Part shown: piece by piece, positions 46,526-56,847 of the stretch
Layout: each line of letters opens with the position of its first letter
Numbering within the stretch: position 1 is the stretch's first letter
Source: Nitrospira sp.
GTDB taxonomy: Bacteria; Nitrospirota; Nitrospiria; Nitrospirales; Nitrospiraceae
Direction: 5' to 3'
NCBI GenBank assembly: GCA_022226955.1
Contig: CP092079.1
Coordinates: 3,458,282 to 3,522,281, forward strand
Length of the DNA stretch: 64,000 nt
Made by a program: the position numbers and the translations under genes
Notes under the pieces: generated by a model
Databases searched by the model: none
What the model was told of the DNA's origin: nothing
Seen by the model: the letters and a program-made list of their open reading frames with translations, nothing else

Positions 46526-47398
46526 CTATTCCGCGTAGACCAGAAGCTGGAGACCGATGAGAAGAATGAGGCCTGCCCAGATCGTCTCCCAGCGGGAGCG
46601 AGACCAGCCCATCAAGACGCCCCGTCCAGCTGAAACAAGCTTGGTGGAACCGGCCGACAACGCCAACGTGCCCATGACGGCATGGTGCATCGCAATTTTC
46701 TCGGCGGCAGGATGAGCGCCGTGGGAATGCGCAAACAACATGAGCCCGCCGACCATCGCAAACAGCGGAAGCGGGACCAGCCAGCCGGCGTGGTCCAGCA
46801 GGCCAAGACGCCGAGACCACTCAATGAGCCCGACGGTCAAAGCCAGAAGACCATACATCTTATGCTGGAGAATTTCATGATCGTTTCCGAAAAACGTCTC
46901 CGCAAAACTCATTGGCCCGATGGGCCAGGCCTGATGATCGCTCCAGATCAGCAGAAACGCGGCCATGCCCAGTAATGCCGCTGGCAGAAGCATTCTCGCC
47001 CAGCCGAGAGAGGAAGACCGCGTCGCCTGCGCCATCTCAGAACAACCGATCAGAAGTACAAATAGTCCGGCGAGATGATGATTGAACTCCGAGTAGGCTA
47101 TGCCAGCCTTCGACCCTTCCCAGCTGTCAGGAGAAAGAGTGAGCGCATGATGATCGTGACCATGCTCCGCGGAACCCACCGAAGCCGCCTCGTGACTAGG
47201 CTCGCCATGCTGAGCGAAGAGCACCGCGCCATCTAGGCCAAGCAGCAGGGCGACCAGGACAATAAGAGAGCAGCATAGCGCCCACATTCTGGCGGGATTT
47301 TCCCTGAAGAACGCTCCGAACGTCGGCATTAAAGGAAAGGCCCATCCGATATTCCGGATGGGCCTCTGGAGACCCTGCAACATGAAATTCCCACTCAC
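46526..47398 (-). CDS. Histidine-rich multi-pass membrane protein
   Basis: A 290-residue protein with about seven hydrophobic segments (for example MWALCCSLIVLVALLLGLDG, LAGLFVLLIG, MLLPAALLGMAAFLLIW, TIWAGLILLIGLQLLVYAE). Its loops hold many His residues: EHGHDHHALTL, FNHHLAG, FGNDHEILQHK, HSHGAHP and MHHAV. These suggest metal or heme binding; CopD-like copper proteins look similar, but no firm family was recognised. It starts at GTG sharing one base with the stop of the zinc-ribbon/PCP_red gene (TAGTG), so the two are translated together. Confidence 0.75.
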   Translation of the reverse strand: MSGNFMLQGLQRPIRNIGWAFPLMPTFGAFFRENPARMWALCCSLIVLVALLLGLDGAVLFAQHGEPSHEAASVGSAEHGHDHHALTLSPDSWEGSKAGIAYSEFNHHLAGLFVLLIGCSEMAQATRSSSLGWARMLLPAALLGMAAFLLIWSDHQAWPIGPMSFAETFFGNDHEILQHKMYGLLALTVGLIEWSRRLGLLDHAGWLVPLPLFAMVGGLMLFAHSHGAHPAAEKIAMHHAVMGTLALSAGSTKLVSAGRGVLMGWSRSRWETIWAGLILLIGLQLLVYAE

Positions 47399-48150
47399 TA
47401 CATAAACTTCATAAACTTATCTTTGGCATCGTCCATGACTTGCGCCGTGATGGTCGCCAGGCCACGTTCTTTGGCGACCCGCTCAATCTCTTTTCGCGCC
47501 ATGGGCCGAATGAAGTCAGGGATGTTCTCCAGCCGCTGCTCGGCTTCCCTCGACCAGGTCATCCCGTTCGGCGAATCGGTCTTGGAGTCATCCATAACTT
47601 GCAACGTGATGGACTTGAATCCATTCTTCCGCGCATAGGCTTCGACACTGCTCTGCACCATCGGCTTCACGAAGGCCGGCAGGCGATCGAGCTTTTCCTT
47701 GGCATCGGCCGTCCAGGTGAAGTCTGAAGATACGGGGGCCGTTCCGTTGCCCGGCTTTCCGGTGCCCGTCAATCCCATTTCTGCGACCATCGCGGAGAAG
47801 GGACAACCGCCACTCGCTTTTTCTCCGGCTTTTTCGGGAGCCGCTACCGCCGCCACCGGTTGCCCGCCCTGAATCTTCTCATTCAAGTAGGCGCCCATCT
47901 GACCCGCACCGGCCATCGCCTCGTCTTTCAATGTGCCCCGGGTCATTTCAAACGGCTCGGCCGCCACCGTGCGCCCGCCCAGCTTGACGCCGAGAGAGCT
48001 GACCATCTGCGTTTCGCCTGGATTCGTCACCATCGAGAACTTGGCGTTGCACGATGGACAGCCGAAGAAGACCCCGAGCGATCCCTCGCCGGGCTTTTCG
48101 ACTTTTTCAAAATTCATATAGGTTTCGCAATTGAGACACACAAATTTCAT
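47398..48150 (-). CDS. Zinc-ribbon protein with two PCP_red repeats
   Basis: A 250-residue soluble protein. The N-terminal zinc ribbon uses C5, C8, C31 and C34 (CLNC, CPSC). A linker with a CPFSAM motif follows. Two C-terminal PCP_red units are W146 to about 188 and W199 to about 240 (WTADAKEKLDRLPAFVKPMV; WSREAEQRLENIPDFIRPMA). Start at 48150 has GAGAGGAG upstream. It starts 25 bases after the mrp stop and overlaps the membrane protein by one base. It shares its repeat with the protein at 32397-33398. Function unknown; linkage to Mrp hints at Fe-S or cofactor chemistry. Confidence 0.8.
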   Translation of the reverse strand: MKFVCLNCETYMNFEKVEKPGEGSLGVFFGCPSCNAKFSMVTNPGETQMVSSLGVKLGGRTVAAEPFEMTRGTLKDEAMAGAGQMGAYLNEKIQGGQPVAAVAAPEKAGEKASGGCPFSAMVAEMGLTGTGKPGNGTAPVSSDFTWTADAKEKLDRLPAFVKPMVQSSVEAYARKNGFKSITLQVMDDSKTDSPNGMTWSREAEQRLENIPDFIRPMARKEIERVAKERGLATITAQVMDDAKDKFMKFM

Positions 48151-48175
48151 AGCAGCTCCTCTCGCATCTCTCGTG

Positions 48176-49096
48176 TCACAGCTTATCCGCCAGCACCTTC
48201 TTATAATCGAGCAACGTGCGGATACGCCCGGCAATTTCCTGGTACCGTTGAATCGTCGGATAGGTTTCGTCGAGCAGCGGCTGCCCCTTATCGAAGGTCT
48301 TGGCGAGTTTCCGGTCGAACGGCACTCTCCCGAGAAGCGGCAGATCGAGGGCCTCGCACATCGCTTCCGTATTGCCTTCGAACAGCTCGTTGACGTCGCC
48401 GCAGGATGGGCAGCGGTATTCGCTCATATTTTCGACGATGCCCAGCACCTTGATACCCATGTCGCGCGCGTAGGTCACCGATTTCTGCACCACATCGGAC
48501 GCCACTTCCGACGGAGTCGTGACCACGATGGCGCCAGCCAGGTCCGGAATAAATCCGGCGATCACCGGCGGTTTATCGGCAGCTGCGCCGGGCGGCAGAT
48601 CGGCTAGCAGATAATCCAACTCGCCCCACATCACATCGGAAAGAAATTCCCGAATCACATTCATTTCCATCAGCCCGAGCCAGACGGGACTGACATCCAT
48701 CGGTCCCTTCCACCGGACGGGCGAGGCATCGTCGAGGAAAAAATCCATCGACGCCACAGCGACCCCGAGCGGACCGACCGGAGGAATCGCCCCTTGCGGC
48801 GTCATCTTCAACGATTGCCCATGCAAGCCGAGCATGCGCGGCACGCAGGGACCGTTCAAATCCACGTCGAGCAGCCCGACTTTCGCGCCTTGCCTGGCAA
48901 ACGCCAGAGCCAGATTGACGGTCGTCATGCTCTTGCCGACGCCGCCCTTCCCGCTCATGACGGCCAGCTTGTACTTAATGCCGGCCATGCGGGCGTGAAC
49001 CTGCTTCGTCTGCTCGGTAATTTGCTGAACCACCTTGGCGTCGTCCGAGTACTTCAGCTTGCCAAGAATGGCTTTGAGATCTTTATCAGCCGCCAT
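48176..49096 (-). CDS. mrp: Mrp/NBP35-family iron-sulfur cluster carrier ATPase
   Basis: A P-loop carrier that transfers Fe-S clusters to apoproteins. The 306-residue protein has the deviant Walker A SGKGGVGKSMT, the DVDLNGPCVPRMLG segment, Walker B-type LLADLPPG and the cluster-binding CPSC (YRCPSCGDVN). Start at 49096 (MAADKDLK) is preferred; the GTG at 49114 has no ribosome site. It follows cysNC by 142 bases on the same strand. Sulfite reductase and APS reductase upstream are Fe-S enzymes, so a functional link is plausible. Confidence 0.92.
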   Translation of the reverse strand: MAADKDLKAILGKLKYSDDAKVVQQITEQTKQVHARMAGIKYKLAVMSGKGGVGKSMTTVNLALAFARQGAKVGLLDVDLNGPCVPRMLGLHGQSLKMTPQGAIPPVGPLGVAVASMDFFLDDASPVRWKGPMDVSPVWLGLMEMNVIREFLSDVMWGELDYLLADLPPGAAADKPPVIAGFIPDLAGAIVVTTPSEVASDVVQKSVTYARDMGIKVLGIVENMSEYRCPSCGDVNELFEGNTEAMCEALDLPLLGRVPFDRKLAKTFDKGQPLLDETYPTIQRYQEIAGRIRTLLDYKKVLADKL

Positions 49097-49238
49097 ACAA
49101 GTCTTTCTATCCACAGGCTAAACGATGCAGGACGGTACGGTAACACAGGGGTTTCTGGGGAGTCAAACCACACGAATGGTGGAGGTCCCACAAGGAAAAC
49201 GAACTCTGTTGGCCCTCTCCCAGCTTATTCCGCACGAG

Positions 49239-51083
49239 CTAGATCGAGTATTGGAACGTCGGCTTGGCGCCGATCGCCTCGGCCAGCACCCCACGACTCT
49301 TAAGCTCGTCCATAATTTGCTTCGTGGCGTGATCGAGATCCGTCGGGCCGCTCAAGACAATGTCCGTATTCGGCGGCGGCTCTTCGCTGGTTTTGCTCAT
49401 GTGCACCGCAATGACCGGCGCCGGATGGACAAGCGTCCGGATCGCCTGCACCGCTTCTTTATAATGCACTCCGAATGGATTGGTGGTGGACACCACGATC
49501 AACCCGGTGTCGATCAGCAATCGGGCGACTTCTCCATACCGCCGAGCCATTTCATCGGTCTGCCCGCGCTCCTCGTCAGTCAAATCGGCATCGAGTCCGC
49601 GGCGAAGATTCTCTCCGTCCAGCAGATAGGCATGCCGCCCATCGGCTACAAGACGTCCTTCCAACTGCCTGGCCAGCAGCGACTTGCCCGTATGCCGCCC
49701 ACCCGTAAACAAGACGATGGCCGCGCGATGCCCATACTGCCGCGCGCGATCCTCCACGCCGACTTCGCCCTTGACCCAGGCGAAATCGCGACGACGGGCT
49801 TCTTCGCGCAGAAACTCCTGGTCGTCATGAATGAGTTCGGTAATGATGCCGCCGCCAGCAATGTCGTATTCGTCGACCAACACGAAACGACCGGTGGCCT
49901 CGAACGAAGCAGATAGGTCGAAGGCGACCGGCGTCTTCGTCCGCAAGGTCAATTCCGCCACCTGGTTCTTGTTCACGGTCATGCTGCCTTGCTGCTGCGC
50001 CAAATCCATCGTGTCGATGATCCGATGGATGGTTGCCACTTCGCAGTCGACTTCCTTGTTAGCCACACGCAACTGATATTTGCGGCCGCGCTCCAGCGGG
50101 CGTTTCCCCAGCCAGAAAATATTGGCTCGGAACGCCGTCGAGACAGACGGCAGATGCTTCTGATGCGTGGCGATCTCTCCGCGCTCCACAAAGATCTGTT
50201 CATCGAGCGTGACGCCAATCGATTGCCCGGCATAGCCTTCCGTCGGAGGCGGATCGATATTAAACGCTTCGACGGATCGGACATTGGCCCGTTTATTCGA
50301 CGGGGAAAAGACCAGATGGTCGCCGACTTTCAGCTTTCCGGCGGTAATACGGCCGGCAATGATGCGGCGGGCATCGAACTTATAGACATCCTGAACCGGA
50401 AAGCGTAGCGGCTGTTCGGAGCGCGCGACTTCCTTCCTGAAAAGACTCAAGGTATCCAGCACCGTCGGGCCGGTGTACCAGGGCATGGTCGTGCTGCGGT
50501 TGGCGATATTGTCGCCGAGCTTGGCGCTGACCGGGATAATGCGCTCGGGCACGGCTTTGAACTGGCCGAGAAACTCGCGATATTCCTTCTCGATGCCATC
50601 GAAGACATCCTGCCGATAGCCGACCAGGTCCATCTTGTTGACGACCACCGCAAACTGGCGGACCCCCAACAGCGACAGCAAGTAACCGTGCTTCTTGGAT
50701 TGTTCCTTCACCCCTTCCAACGCATCGATCAGCAGCAGCGCGGCTTCCGCCCGCGCCGCGCCCGAAATCATATTCTTGAGAAATTCCTTGTGGCCTGGGG
50801 CATCGATAATGATGTACTGGCGGCCTTTCCAGCCGAAGAAAGTGCGCGCCGTATCGATCGTGATCCCTTGTTCTTGTTCTTCGAGAAAGGCATCGAACAA
50901 GAAGGCGTACTCAAACTCTTTGCCTTGCTGACGGCAGATCGCCTGCACTTTTTCCAACTTGCCGTCGGGCAACGATCCCGTATCGGCGTAGAGGCGCCCG
51001 AGTAAGGTGGACTTGCCGTGATCGACATGCCCAACGATGACGATGTTCAAATTCTCTGATGGCTTCTGAGTTGGATTATCCAT
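49239..51083 (-). CDS. cysN: Sulfate adenylyltransferase GTPase subunit fused to a divergent APS-kinase-like domain
   Basis: A 614-residue protein. Residues 10-430 are the CysN GTPase that powers ATP sulfurylase: GHVDHGKST (18-26), DAPGH (94-98), NKMD (149-152) and EF-Tu-like beta domains. Residues 450-614 resemble CysC, with a P-loop GGRHTGKS (461-468; canonical APS kinases have GLSGSGKST) and DGENLRRGL (489-497). The canonical FISP(Y/F)R segment reads [10 protein letters not shown], and the late ERD.KGLY-type APS motif is not seen. So kinase activity is doubtful. It is separated from cysD by a 125-base palindromic element. Confidence 0.9.
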
Positions 51084-51226: not shown

Positions 51227-52024
51227 TTACATGTAGCCGTCTTTGCGTAAGAGCTCCATCCCGCGCCCTTCATCCTGCGCACGGCCGGCTCGTTCCGCCA
51301 CCGTTGTCTGGCGCAATTCAGCAATGATCTCATCGACCGTCTTGGCGGTCGATTTGATCGGCGTCGTGCAGGGCGCGCAGCCGAGACTGCGGTACCTGGT
51401 CCCATCGCCCTTGTCGAGATACAAATCCATGAAGGGAATATTTTCGTGCTTGATGTATTCCCAAATATTGATCTCCGTCCAATCCAGCAACGGATGGATG
51501 CGAATATGCGTGCCAGGCGGAAAGGTCGTCTTGAACTGATCCCAGAGCTCGGGCGGCTGATCTCGGAAATCCCAGTCGCCATGCTTGTCGCGGGGCGAAA
51601 AATACCGCTCTTTCGCCCTCGTCCCCTCTTCGTCCGCGCGCACACCGAGGATGATGCCGGTGTAGCCTTTCTGTTCGATCAGCTGCTTCAGCCCATTCGT
51701 CTTGAGCGCGGTGCAACAGGCGACGCGGCCCATCGTATGATTCATGCCAGCGGCCAAGGCTTCTTTGTTTTGGCCCACCACCAAATCTAAGCGCCATTCA
51801 CGCGCGATCCGGTCGCGATATTCGATCATCGCGGGAATCTTGTAGCTGGTATCAACGTGCAGCAACGGAAAGGGCACCTGCCCGAAGAAGGCCTTGCGCG
51901 CCAGCCAGAGCAAGACGGTGGAGTCTTTGCCCATGGACCAGAGCATGCCCAGGTTGTCGAAATTCTTGTAGGCCTCGCGAAGAATGTAGACGCTTTGATC
52001 TTCCAACTGACGAAGGTGTTTCAC
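51227..52024 (-). CDS. cysD: Sulfate adenylyltransferase small subunit
   Basis: Catalytic subunit of ATP sulfurylase, forming adenylyl sulfate (APS) with CysN. The 265-residue protein has the PP-loop [17 protein letters not shown] (canonical SxGKDS), [15 protein letters not shown] and the late [10 protein letters not shown]. coli CysD is about 300 residues; this shorter form still covers the core. It starts 32 bases after the TrpD-like gene, and its stop abuts the palindromic element. Confidence 0.94.
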
Positions 52025-52056: not shown

Positions 52057-53109
52057 CTATCCCCGTTTACCGGCCGCAAGAGGCGCCTGCGCCAGCTCAT
52101 CCAACTTGCGAGCCGCGGCGCCGTTTTCAAGCGCGGCTCGCGCCATCGGCAGACAGGCTGGCGCTGTTGCTCCCTTTCCCGCCGCATACAGCAACAACGC
52201 TGCATTCATCAGCACCCAATCCTTGGGGCCGCCCGGCACCTGATTCTGCAAAATCTTCCGCAACAACGCCGCTTCCTTCTCCTGCTGGCCCGGGGGAAAC
52301 CCAGCCATGTCGCGAGATGTGCCGAGCGCCAAGCCGAAATCCTTCGGCGAAATTCCCAGCGGAGCGATCCGCTCATCCCGCAACTCCAGCACCCGGGTTG
52401 CCGCTGTGACGGAGAGCTCCGGATCGCCTTCCACGCCACGAATCACCAAGGCGCGTGGACAGCCCAACATCCGCAACACCTCCGCCGTTTTTTCGAAATG
52501 CGGCGGATGGGACAAGCCCACCACTTGCGCCGCCGCCCGCGACGGGTTCAGCAGCCGGGCGATCGGATGGAAGAGATTGCGCACCCCGATTTCCTGGCGC
52601 ATTTCCAGAAAGCGATAGAGCGGCGGATGGTACATGCCGATATCGAGATAGACGAATCCTTTTTTCGTCACCTCCTCGCCGGCCATTTTCGGATCCAGAT
52701 CGATCGGAACCCCGAGGGCTTTCAACACACCCGCCGCACCAGGACGCCCGGGAATGCCGTCATAGCCATGCATCACGATCGCCGCGCCCGCCGATGCTGC
52801 GACGATCGCCCCAGCAATCAGGCTGTGAAAGGTCTCGGACTTGCCGGCATAACTCGGCACATCCACGACCGCCAGCTCTTTTGAGATCGACAGCGGCGCG
52901 ACATATTGCCGGGCGGTGGCCGTAAAGGCCGCCAACTCCGACACCGATTCCATCTTGAATCGCATCGCCATCAGAAAAGCCGCGATCTGCGCCTGCGTGG
53001 CTTGCCCTTCGATCAACAATTTCATGACCTGCTTGGATTCATCCCAGGTCAGATCTTTGGAGGCTTTCGGACCCTTGGCAATTTTCGCAATGAAGTCTTG
53101 GATAGGCAT
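52057..53109 (-). CDS. TrpD-like (anthranilate phosphoribosyltransferase-like) protein, YbiB type
   Basis: A 350-residue nucleoside phosphorylase/TrpD-fold protein. The N-terminal helical domain ([38 protein letters not shown]) is canonical. The phosphoribosyl loop that reads GTGGD in true TrpD is replaced by SYAGKSET. The KHGNR motif reads MHGYDGIPG. These changes place it nearer E. coli YbiB/TrpD2, which binds nucleic acid and lacks TrpD activity. It is embedded in the sulfate-assimilation operon, one base after cysH and 32 before cysD. Not a tryptophan gene; function unknown. Confidence 0.82.
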
Positions 53110-53110
53110 A

Positions 53111-53827
53111 TTAGGATTTGTGGAGCCCACACTCGGTCTTGGTAAATGTTTTCCAACGTCCGGCGCGCGGATCTTCACCCGGCGCCACCGGAGCGGTGCA
53201 ATAGGTGCACCCGATACTCGGATAATTCTGATCGTGCAAGGGATTGTAAGGGACTTCATAGACCTTGATATAAGTCCACACATCGGACCAGGTCCAGCGC
53301 GCCAACGGATTCACTTTGACCAGCTGGAACTTGCTATCCCATTCAATCAACCCCGCGTTGGCTCTGGTCGGCGACTGATCGCGGCGAATGCCGGTGATCC
53401 AGGCGTCATATCCTTTCAACACACGCGTCAGCGGCTCCACCTTCCGCAACTGACAGCAGCGATCCGGTTCCGTCGACCAGAGCGCCGGACCATGTTGCGC
53501 CGCCTGTTGTTCCGGAGTCAGCAACGACTGCACCTGAATGACTTGCGCCGGCTTCAGCGCATACTGCTGAATGATGCGATCGCGGGTCGCATAGGTTTCA
53601 GGAAACAGAAAGTCCGTGTCCAAATAGAACAACGGGATCGAAGGGTCGATGCGATGCACCATATCGACCAGCACCACATCTTCCGCCCCGAAACTGCAGG
53701 CGACGACTATCTTTGGAGCGAACCGCTTGATCGCGTCCTTCAGTACATCCTGCGGCTGCTGAGACTCGAACGCCTCGCTCGCGCGTTTCAATTCAGCGAC
53801 CATCTCTGGACTTCCACCGTTGGTCAT
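53111..53827 (-). CDS. cysH: Adenylyl-sulfate reductase (APS-type CysH)
   Basis: Reduces APS (or PAPS) to sulfite with thioredoxin. The 238-residue protein has the PP-loop-like ACSFGAEDVVLVDM, the [4Fe-4S] cysteine motifs DRCCQLRKVEP and IGCTYCTAP, and the catalytic ECGLH tail. Having both Cys pairs is the mark of the cluster-containing form that uses APS directly, seen in plants and many non-enteric bacteria. It lies 17 bases after the sulfite reductase gene. Fits with the degenerate kinase domain on CysN. Confidence 0.94.
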   Translation of the reverse strand: MTNGGSPEMVAELKRASEAFESQQPQDVLKDAIKRFAPKIVVACSFGAEDVVLVDMVHRIDPSIPLFYLDTDFLFPETYATRDRIIQQYALKPAQVIQVQSLLTPEQQAAQHGPALWSTEPDRCCQLRKVEPLTRVLKGYDAWITGIRRDQSPTRANAGLIEWDSKFQLVKVNPLARWTWSDVWTYIKVYEVPYNPLHDQNYPSIGCTYCTAPVAPGEDPRAGRWKTFTKTECGLHKS

Positions 53828-53844: not shown

Positions 53845-56337
53845 TTAGCCTTCGACCTTTTCCACGAGGACGCGATAATGCGCGGCCTCCGGCTCCAGCG
53901 CTTCCTGGAGGAGGACAAGATGACCATCGTTCTTCAAACTCATCGGCACGTTCTTAATCGGTTCGCCGGCGTCCAGCCAGACTTCCAGTTTCTCACCCGC
54001 ATCCATCATTTCGAGTTTGAGCTTCGTCTTCACATAATTCATCGGACAGGCAACGCCGCGAAGATCGTAGACCGGCGCGCCCGTTGGCGCAGGAGCGGCT
54101 GGCGCAACCGGTGCGGCCACGACCGTTTCCTTCGCCGAAACCGCCGGTTCCTGGACCGGCGCGAGCTTGAGATCTTTCCCCATCTGGTCGGTCGCCGCGC
54201 GACAGGCATCGACGAACCCCTTTGCAAACGCCATCTTTTCACGGGCCGATTCCGCGGTTGTATCCTTCGGCCCGAGATCGCCCACTTTTTTAGTGAGATC
54301 TCTGTACTGCGCGGGAACGACGCCCTTCTTGGCAATCCGACTATCGAACTCCATAAATGTTTCTGCGTCGGTCGAGGGTTCGAGCCCCTCTGTCACCAGC
54401 ATCGCTTTAGCTGCCGCCAATACTGCGCGATAGGATTTGTTCACCGACACGGAGTACTGATGGTTCTCGACGAGCAACTTGGCCTGATAGAGCTCCTGGT
54501 CCGCTTCGAGAATGCCGTTTTCGATCATCTCCAACGCGCCGCCGGCGCACTCGCCGGGGCCCAAATCCTCGAGAATGAATTCGGCCTCGCCTTCCCAGTC
54601 GTAATAGAAAGTGGGATCGTCTTGATAAGCCGGAACAATGGTATAGGGGATCAGTTCGTCCTTGAGCTTGCTTTTGCCCGCGCGCGCAATAAACGCCGAC
54701 AGGTTTTCTTTCGGCAATCGATCCCGCCGGTACACCTCGACGAGATGCGAGAGTGCGGCCGGCACTGCCTTCGCCGGCAATTTGACCGTCATCTGCCCGA
54801 TCTTCGGGGTGCCATCGACTTGTCCGCCCAGATGCAACTCATAATGGGGCGCGACGTGTTCGCCCAACCGTTTCCCGACGCCATGCAACCCGATCGTCGA
54901 GATATGGTGTTGCGCACAGGAATTATGGCAGCCGCTGATCTTCACGCTCACATCCGACAGGTCTTCGGGAACCCGGCCGGCCGGAAAGACTTCGGCCAAG
55001 GCCCGGGCCAGCCCCTTTGATGAGGTGATCCCCAAGCCGCAGGTATCGGTCCCTGGGCAGGCGATAATATCTTCCACCAACTCTGCACCTGGATCGGACA
55101 GGCCAGCGACCGACAACTCATTGTAAAGCGATTCGACCTGCGACTCGGGAATCCACCGGATCACCATGTTCTGATTGATGGTGGTGCGAATATTCCCGTT
55201 GGCATACCGTTCGGCAAGATCCGATACGCAAAGCATCTGTTCAGAAGTCAGATCGCCCATGAAGAGCTTGATCGCCGCCGTGACATAGCCGGGCTGTCTC
55301 TGCTTGACGACATTCGTCCGCCTCCACATTTCAAACGGCGTTTCATGCCCGATGCCGTGATTGACCCCGTTACCGTTTGACGATGAGTGCCCGGAACCGT
55401 TGCGTGTCGGCATGATCAGTGGAGTCGGCTCGTCCGCATAGGTGAGCAGCGCGAGCGGCTCATGCGACGGTTTCGCATAGCCCATCGACTCATAGGCGGC
55501 TTCCCAGCGGCGCTTGAATTCATCGAACCCCAGCTTCTCGATCACAAACTTCATGCGAGCTTTGTTCCGGTTCTTCCGGTTCCCCAGCGTATCGAACACC
55601 TTAATGACGGCCTCAATACTCGGCAGCAATTCTTCCATCGGCGTAAATTCACGCAGGACCTGCGCCATACGCGGGGCCGAACCCAAGCCGCCACCCGCCA
55701 CCATGCGAAACCCAATGGTGCCATCGGCCCGCTTGGCTGCGAGCAGTCCGATGTCATGGATCGGAGTCAGCGCGCAATCCTGCTTGCAGCCGGAAAGCGC
55801 GATCTTGAATTTTCTCGGCAGACTTTGATTCAAGGGATTCCGCAGCAAGTGATAGGCGACGGTCTTCGCATAGGGCGTCACGTCGAAGACTTCGCCCTGG
55901 CAGACTCCGGCCAGATGGCAGGCTGTCACATTGCGGACGGTATTGGCGCAGGCTTCCCGCGTGGTAAGCCCCACCTCGGCCAGGCCGCGCATGATGGCCG
56001 GCACGTCTTTCAATTCCACAAAGTGCAGCTGGATATCCTGGCGTGTGGTCACATGCCCGACCGCAGTGGCATGGCGATCTGCCAGCTCCGCGACTCGCCG
56101 AAGCTGATTGGCCGAGATGCCTCCGAACGGAATCTTGATCCGGACCATCTGCACGCCTGGCTGACGCTGGCCATAGATGCCATATTGCAGCCGGAATGGT
56201 CTGAACAGGTCAGTTGACACTTCTCCTGCCATCGTGCGCAGAGCTTCCGCTTCAAACGTTTCTATTTCCTCAAGCAGTGCCGGAGGAATCGGCGATGTTT
56301 TAATTTCCGGCACGATCAGCTGATCTTGGGGACTCAT
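53845..56337 (-). CDS. Siroheme sulfite (nitrite) reductase fused to HEPN-like and TusA-like domains
   Basis: An 830-residue protein. Residues 1-560 are the two-half ferredoxin-type sulfite/nitrite reductase: the second half has the siroheme/[4Fe-4S] cysteines C427 and C433 (ACPGTDTC) and C470 and C474 (SGCHNSC). The first half also has a full set, C140 and C146 (ACHLAGVC) and C184 and C188 (SGCKQDC), which classic SiR lacks. About 580-715 is helical and HEPN-like. A Pro/Ala linker leads to a TusA-like domain with RGVACPMNYVK (C764, CPxN instead of CPxP). Start at 56337 follows GGGAGGA. Operon context favours sulfite as substrate. Confidence 0.88.
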   Translation of the reverse strand: MSPQDQLIVPEIKTSPIPPALLEEIETFEAEALRTMAGEVSTDLFRPFRLQYGIYGQRQPGVQMVRIKIPFGGISANQLRRVAELADRHATAVGHVTTRQDIQLHFVELKDVPAIMRGLAEVGLTTREACANTVRNVTACHLAGVCQGEVFDVTPYAKTVAYHLLRNPLNQSLPRKFKIALSGCKQDCALTPIHDIGLLAAKRADGTIGFRMVAGGGLGSAPRMAQVLREFTPMEELLPSIEAVIKVFDTLGNRKNRNKARMKFVIEKLGFDEFKRRWEAAYESMGYAKPSHEPLALLTYADEPTPLIMPTRNGSGHSSSNGNGVNHGIGHETPFEMWRRTNVVKQRQPGYVTAAIKLFMGDLTSEQMLCVSDLAERYANGNIRTTINQNMVIRWIPESQVESLYNELSVAGLSDPGAELVEDIIACPGTDTCGLGITSSKGLARALAEVFPAGRVPEDLSDVSVKISGCHNSCAQHHISTIGLHGVGKRLGEHVAPHYELHLGGQVDGTPKIGQMTVKLPAKAVPAALSHLVEVYRRDRLPKENLSAFIARAGKSKLKDELIPYTIVPAYQDDPTFYYDWEGEAEFILEDLGPGECAGGALEMIENGILEADQELYQAKLLVENHQYSVSVNKSYRAVLAAAKAMLVTEGLEPSTDAETFMEFDSRIAKKGVVPAQYRDLTKKVGDLGPKDTTAESAREKMAFAKGFVDACRAATDQMGKDLKLAPVQEPAVSAKETVVAAPVAPAAPAPTGAPVYDLRGVACPMNYVKTKLKLEMMDAGEKLEVWLDAGEPIKNVPMSLKNDGHLVLLQEALEPEAAHYRVLVEKVEG

Positions 56338-56397: not shown

Positions 56398-56847
56398 TTA
56401 GATGTGATACATGGGATTCCGCTGCTGATCGAGCGCTCGTTGGCGTTCAACCAGTTGGTCTATCGTAATCGCTTCGAGCACATTCCGCTCGGCCTGATGC
56501 ACCTTCTCCCACACGCTTCCGAGTAAGAGTTGCTCTCTCGTGTCGCGCCGATTCGGCCCGGTACCATTGTGCGAAGCATCATGAAACACCGGCCCATCGA
56601 GCGCCTCCAGCAGATCAGCCACGGACAGTTCAGCGGGCGAACGCAAGAGAAGATAGCCTCCCTGCGCCCCCCGTGTGCTATCGACCAGACCGGCTTTCTT
56701 CATGGCATGCAGCACTTGCTCAAGAAACCGCACAGGGATCGCTTGCCGCCTCGCAATAGCCCGCGCCTGAATGGGGACTTCCTTCCCATTCATGGCGAGG
56801 TCAACGGCAGCCATTATTCCATACGTTGCGCGATGCGATACTTTCAT
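56398..56847 (-). CDS. Rrf2-family transcriptional regulator
   Basis: A 149-residue winged-helix regulator. MKVSHRATYGIMAAVDLA and ARAIARRQAIPVRFLEQVLHAMKKAGLVDSTRGAQGGYLL are the Rrf2 helix-turn-helix and wing. The three cysteines that bind a cluster in IscR and NsrR are absent; the protein has no Cys at all, so it resembles CymR, which senses cysteine status through CysK. First gene of the sulfur operon, 60 bases before the sulfite reductase. A palindrome lies 8 bases upstream of its start, suggesting autoregulation. Confidence 0.92.
   Translation of the reverse strand: MKVSHRATYGIMAAVDLAMNGKEVPIQARAIARRQAIPVRFLEQVLHAMKKAGLVDSTRGAQGGYLLLRSPAELSVADLLEALDGPVFHDASHNGTGPNRRDTREQLLLGSVWEKVHQAERNVLEAITIDQLVERQRALDQQRNPMYHI

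Follow-up and report, generated by a model that had tools for sequence, protein, structure and literature searches.

According to the accepted scheme, assimilatory sulfite reductases (SiRs) arose by fusion of duplicated genes, and the cluster motif of the first half was subsequently lost (PMC10229431). Within the window, the 64,000-nucleotide stretch of Nitrospira DNA that was analysed, one gene encodes a SiR that carries this motif in both halves and ends in a TusA sulfur carrier domain, which raises the question of what the additional motif does and in what form reduced sulfur leaves the enzyme. The gene occupies positions 53845..56337 of the minus strand, on which all features of the window described here lie; its open reading frame begins with ATG, has a GGAGG-type ribosome site upstream and encodes an 830-residue protein, P0001. 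Pfam matches comprise NIR_SIR_ferr and NIR_SIR (two copies each), HEPN and TusA, and the cysteines of the protein stand at positions 130, 140, 146, 184, 188, 370, 427, 433, 470, 474, 597, 712 and 764. An initial annotation of this DNA had given the same coordinates, the Cx5C and Cx3C of the first half and the CPMN motif, and each agrees with the reading frame and alignments obtained here; the HEPN-like and TusA-like domains that it proposed were borne out by Pfam and by structure searches.

Pfam matches and mapping onto E. coli CysI delimit the first SiR half (residues 45-285; 55483..56205) and, together with a half-to-half profile comparison, the second (residues 338-560; 54658..55326). The second half contains the catalytic siroheme/[4Fe-4S] motif C427-x5-C433 ... 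C470-x3-C474 (54916..55059), which aligns with C434, C440, C479 and C483 of E. coli CysI, and N472 likewise agrees with that enzyme. In the first half, R66, R99, R135, K176 and K178 correspond to CysI residues R83, R117, R153, K215 and K217, and the sulfite and siroheme-carboxylate ligands of the functional site (R66, R99, Q103, R135, R175, K176 and K178) are invariant in all 28 distant members of the family. P0001 thus has the two halves, the second-half cluster motif and the sulfite-binding Arg/Lys set that are shared by assimilatory siroheme reductases such as E. coli CysI, plant SiR/NiR and M. tuberculosis NirA. A full-length AlphaFold model, for which the alignment input was 44 Nitrospira sequences, matches solved SiR/NiR structures in a Foldseek search; its pLDDT of 63.8, with active-site segments below 50, is too low for distances to be read from it. 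Two other identities were considered and rejected. Assignment as DsrAB is contradicted by the NCBIfam equivalog scores (74.6 against a cut-off of 341.5 for dsrB, 30.3 against 392.85 for dsrA), and no Fer4-type Pfam match in P0001 indicates the inserted ferredoxin domain that is a trait of DsrAB. Assignment as NirA is disfavoured by scores of 286 versus 523 bits (NF007126) and 243 versus 594 bits (NF007125), as well as by a lysine rather than an asparagine at the CysI K217 position; this sulfite-type residue, K178, is invariant in the family, whereas the separate NirA encoded by the same genome has an asparagine there. At the level of sequence, homology and operon context show P0001 to be an assimilatory siroheme sulfite reductase of Nitrospira. 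It differs from the characterised assimilatory enzymes in that they have no cluster motif in the first half, whereas in P0001 C140, C146, C184 and C188 are conserved.

The first-half motif, C140-x5-C146 ... C184-x3-C188 (55774..55920), was identified by alignment and by profile comparison. When the profile of residues 45-285 is aligned with that of residues 338-560 (212 columns, probability 99.5, E 2.1e-23), the four cysteines register exactly on C427, C433, C470 and C474, in the shared contexts AC-x5-C and SGC-x3-C. Of 117 Nitrospira-type loci, 116 encode all four and the other is a fragment; of 28 distant relatives within Nitrospirota, 26 have the full set. The cysteines are conserved among relatives down to ~41% identity. 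Because the cysteines are both in register and conserved across relatives, a chance occurrence can be dismissed, and the cysteine set noticed in the initial annotation is a genuine, conserved duplicate of the cluster motif. The two exceptions among the distant relatives (L122 and L123) have the set C-S-C-H; as they are missing two of the four cysteines, the first-half cluster is not indispensable. The same partial set occurs, apparently independently, in a Thermus homologue (L159), and it may denote a Ser/His-ligated or smaller cluster. These C-S-C-H variants are also what one would cite for the idea that the cysteines of the first half are zinc ligands or disulfide partners unrelated to iron-sulfur chemistry, an idea that we regard as very improbable given their exact register with the second-half cluster motif, including the SGCxxxC context.

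The distribution of the first-half cysteines beyond Nitrospirota bears on their origin. First-half counterparts from the sampled outside phyla and E. coli CysI retain none to three of the four: there are none in the sampled proteins of Proteobacteria, Bacteroidota, Chloroflexota and Streptomyces, and E. coli CysI has N-L-P-D at the four positions, whereas partial sets are found in Thermus L159 (C-S-C-H), in the NirA of the Nitrospira genome itself (C-N-C-C), in haloarchaea (C-D-C-C) and in NirB-like proteins (two cysteines). The view that classic reductases carry a single cysteine set, from which the initial annotation started, is therefore accurate for the sampled E. coli, plant and mycobacterial enzymes, which are without first-half cysteines, but does not extend to the NirA, NirB-like, haloarchaeal and Thermus relatives, which keep two or three. 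The NirB-like proteins (L142-L149; ~1080 residues, with Pyr_redox and Fer2_BFD domains) have two full SiR halves. In the tree, proteins with partial sets fall into distinct deep clades. C140 and C184 turn up repeatedly among these clades, but C146 was seen only in Nitrospirota. Such a pattern would fit decay from a four-cysteine ancestor; given the C146 distribution and the low support (36-37) of the deep nodes that join Thermus, Bacteroidota and Nitrospirota, retention of the full set from that ancestor is likely rather than proven.

To judge what the first-half site might bind, we considered the positions in the second half that are pseudo-equivalent to the functional siroheme and sulfite ligands (355, 388, 392, 422, 461, 462 and 464). 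They are variable and mostly not basic, although 17 of 28 members have a basic residue at 464. The four cysteines are kept while these pseudo-equivalents vary, which suggests that the cluster motif has been selected without a catalytic or tetrapyrrole-binding part, and the first-half site is probably non-catalytic. The most probable occupant of this site is a second [4Fe-4S] cluster that lacks a catalytic siroheme; its non-catalytic role is predicted because the basic siroheme and sulfite ligands have no counterparts there. A different arrangement is known from DsrAB, which has one functional and one structural siroheme centre (PMC10229431). P0001 resembles the DsrAB-DsrC system in having two cluster sites per pseudo-symmetric unit and a protein sulfur carrier that would take the product, yet it is a single chain without a matched ferredoxin insert, its carrier is a covalently attached TusA and its operon is assimilatory. 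With this precedent, and with CX5CXnCX3C motifs in register in both halves, P0001 could be imagined as a single-chain counterpart of DsrA-DsrB with a siroheme-[4Fe-4S] centre in each half, of which one siroheme would be active and the other structural; we consider this improbable, since the second-half pseudo-equivalents of R99, Q103, R175, R66, R135 and K176 are not conserved and Pfam matches no ferredoxin insert. The coenzyme F420-dependent enzyme Fsr also shares the canonical CX5CXnCX3C and an assimilatory-type active site with P0001, but has a single SiR half that acts as a homodimer and is fused to an F420H2 oxidase (PMC10229431).

The SiR core is followed immediately by a GxGEC(A/S)G arm (54541..54561) that carries C597, a conserved cysteine overlooked in the initial annotation. 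The motif is invariant in the query and in all 28 distant members, and in Thermus L159, which reads GRGECAV-stop, it forms the very end of the protein. It is present as GxGEC or VGEC in the nitrite/sulfite reductases of Thermus (L159) and Bacteroidota (L160 and L161), and the alignment of the latter two to P0001 extends over the following helical region, to about residue 714. Unlike P0001, neither group has a TusA domain, and the first-half cysteines are gone in the Bacteroidota proteins and half gone in the Thermus protein. GxGEC was also found on one contig of a viral collection; this IMG/VR contig (L168, 3001-4851) terminates in a Bacteroidota-like SiR and is probably host DNA. A search of viral contigs for diverse homologues recovered a single relative. 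A cysteine on a C-terminal arm recalls how DsrC and CysH present theirs. C597 may act as the first sulfur acceptor, or its role may instead be structural.

The arm leads into a helical domain with a HEPN fold (residues ~599-720; 54178..54543). Its Pfam match (residues 610-656, E 7.8e-6) is over the cut-off but weak, and only 3 of 15 members give one. A structure search with a model of residues 564-830 returned the Archaeoglobus HEPN protein 2hsb (Z 15.6, rmsd 2.7, 119 residues aligned), and the chains ranked next are likewise HEPN proteins or closely related to them. A ribonuclease or toxin function was considered and dropped, because the catalytic RX4-6H motif is missing: it is absent from residues 561-760 of P0001, and of 139 fused members only 9 show even a loose match. 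Beyond this domain, an Ala/Pro-rich segment (residues 724-755; 54073..54168), with pLDDT values of 27-41 and 43% Ala+Pro across the family, forms a flexible linker to the TusA domain.

The TusA domain (53851..54072) is matched by Pfam at residues 757-827 (E 3.8e-16), and the C-terminal model resembles the TusA-type structure 8k1r (Z 10.6) and E. coli TusA (3lvj; Z 9.2, rmsd 2.2, 74 residues aligned). Its carrier cysteine, C764, lies in a CPMN motif, and CPxN rather than CPxP is found in all 140 motif-bearing proteins counted. A free TusA paralogue has a similar CPYN, and the canonical TusA of the same genome, located beside a DsrE-like gene, has CPMP. TusA is fused to SiR in Nitrospira loci and most deeper relatives. 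In one family (f7; L137-L141) the SiR protein stops behind its HEPN domain, and TusA, with CPMN, is encoded by a gene of its own immediately downstream (spacing -29 to +45 bp). This is a natural fission of the SiR-TusA fusion, and the occurrence of the pair in fused and split form argues for a shared job of the two proteins. A long reading frame at another locus (L135; 1234 residues) was considered as a further fusion and is taken instead as an open upstream frame. Siroheme reductases joined to sulfurtransferases have a precedent in the haloarchaeal rhodanese-fused SiR/NirA (L177; PMC11237513), which keeps three of the four first-half cysteines (C-D-C-C) and has two N-terminal rhodanese domains, as against the C-terminal HEPN and TusA of P0001. 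On the Halomontanus rarus plasmid that encodes it (L177, 2104-4644), the gene with two rhodanese domains and SiR adjoins an F420 dehydrogenase-type gene.

The P0001 gene lies in a sulfate assimilation operon. Upstream is a gene for a CymR/IscR-like regulator of the Rrf2 family (56398..56847), and downstream are genes for the APS/PAPS reductase CysH (53111..53827), a TrpD2-like protein of the glycosyltransferase family (52057..53109), the small subunit of sulfate adenylyltransferase, CysD (51227..52024), and its large subunit with an APS-kinase-like end, CysNC (49239..51083), as assigned by Pfam, NCBIfam and neighbourhood. The start of the TrpD2-like gene was placed at MPIQDF, as the listed reading frame begins at 53283, inside cysH. 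The order Rrf2-SiR-cysH-trpD2-cysD-cysNC is kept in most of 80 Nitrospira loci, some of which are cut by contig ends; the regulator accompanies SiR in all 80, cysH in 77, trpD2 in 76, cysD in 70 and cysNC in 67. The TrpD2-like gene is thus locked into a sulfate assimilation operon. CysH shows the CC...CxxC pattern typical of APS reductases, and the APS-kinase part of CysNC, which may be degenerate, aligns with the 152-position Pfam profile from position 2 to 108 only. After the operon (47398-49114) come an Mrp/ApbC-type Fe-S carrier ATPase (48176..49114) and a protein with two PCP_red domains, whose usual home is protochlorophyllide reductase. In deeper Nitrospirota the upstream enzyme varies and SiR-TusA is constant: the gene is downstream of aprA and aprB at two loci (L124, 3556-8462; L126, 5998-10820), and at a third (L130, 4805-10595) it is flanked by an aprA-type gene with Rrf2 on one side and by ATP sulfurylase on the other. 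At these three loci a dissimilatory-type APS reductase occurs in a seemingly assimilatory setting.

These observations bear on the fate of the reduced sulfur. The genome encodes CysK and the CPMP-type TusA, and cysteine synthesis from sulfide in the ordinary way may therefore be enough. P0001 might accordingly be an ordinary sulfide-releasing SiR whose first-half cluster is a structural relic and whose TusA, fused only through co-expression, has a separate housekeeping job in persulfide storage or buffering, tRNA thiolation or Moco supply. The close TusA-less homologues annotated in Thermus and Bacteroidota operons, and the separate TusA gene of L137-L141, speak in the same direction as CysK, yet we think this account rather unlikely: throughout the phylum, almost every member examined has TusA either fused to SiR or encoded right beside it, its motif is always CPxN and so set apart from the canonical CPMP copy, and C597 is invariant. 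The initial annotation had suggested that the sulfide or persulfide formed goes straight to C764; for sulfide itself, loading of a TusA cysteine would require an oxidant, whereas a zero-valent or persulfide product could charge it.

The reading that we prefer, and to which we would give an even chance, is that of an assimilatory SiR whose own TusA receives the reduced sulfur by way of C597 and whose first half has a second, non-catalytic cluster. Sulfite supplied by CysH, or by AprBA in deeper members, is reduced at the single siroheme-[4Fe-4S] centre on C427, C433, C470 and C474, to which the first half, as homology shows, contributes sulfite-binding arginines and lysines. The first-half cluster might serve stability or as an entry point for electrons. 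Sulfur would depart as sulfide or zero-valent sulfur, and at least part of it would pass onto the C597 arm and then to C764 of TusA. This domain could swing on the Ala/Pro linker and deliver protein-bound sulfur to acceptors such as cysteine synthase or enzymes of thiolation, although sulfide may also exit in free form. The HEPN domain, placed between SiR core and TusA arm, would be a scaffold without catalytic function. A bolder form of this proposal, which we advance tentatively and hold to be possible but doubtful, is that the single-chain enzyme retains both ancestral cluster sites, one with the catalytic siroheme and one as a siroheme-free relay, and that its product is a protein persulfide passed from C597 to C764, so that TusA would be a built-in counterpart of DsrC in the sulfate assimilation of a branch of the phylum. 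For other assimilatory SiRs, S0 was claimed as the direct product in a 2026 paper (PMC13188885). The parts of P0001 are known, and no SiR with TusA or HEPN was found described in the open-licence literature searched; the same holds for the combination of both cluster motifs, the GxGEC arm, HEPN and a CPxN TusA.

The family is widespread in the phylum. The source genome, a single contig of 3.6 Mb, has its closest matches in Nitrospira (94-96% identity), and all 80 Nitrospira-type loci kept encode this SiR. Within the order, nearly all sampled genomes have it, as do many Nitrospirota outside the order; identity is ~41-60% in the more distant families. The whole-genome search covered Nitrospirota, and the relatives from other phyla are plasmid-borne sequences. 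Of 61 Nitrospirota genomes checked, 26 have dsrA and none of these 26 has this SiR, a pattern that runs across clades and is not a count of independent cases.

A living family with both motifs makes the intermediate of the duplication-and-loss scheme testable. With its fused TusA and conserved cysteine arm, the enzyme also offers a clean system for the question of free sulfide versus carrier-bound zero-valent sulfur, which was reopened in 2026 (PMC13188885). The enzyme is present throughout the sampled genomes of Nitrospira, a genus of key nitrifiers, and the design of the family, as read from its sequences, suggests that reduced sulfur is passed on in protein-bound form and is not solely freed as hydrogen sulfide.
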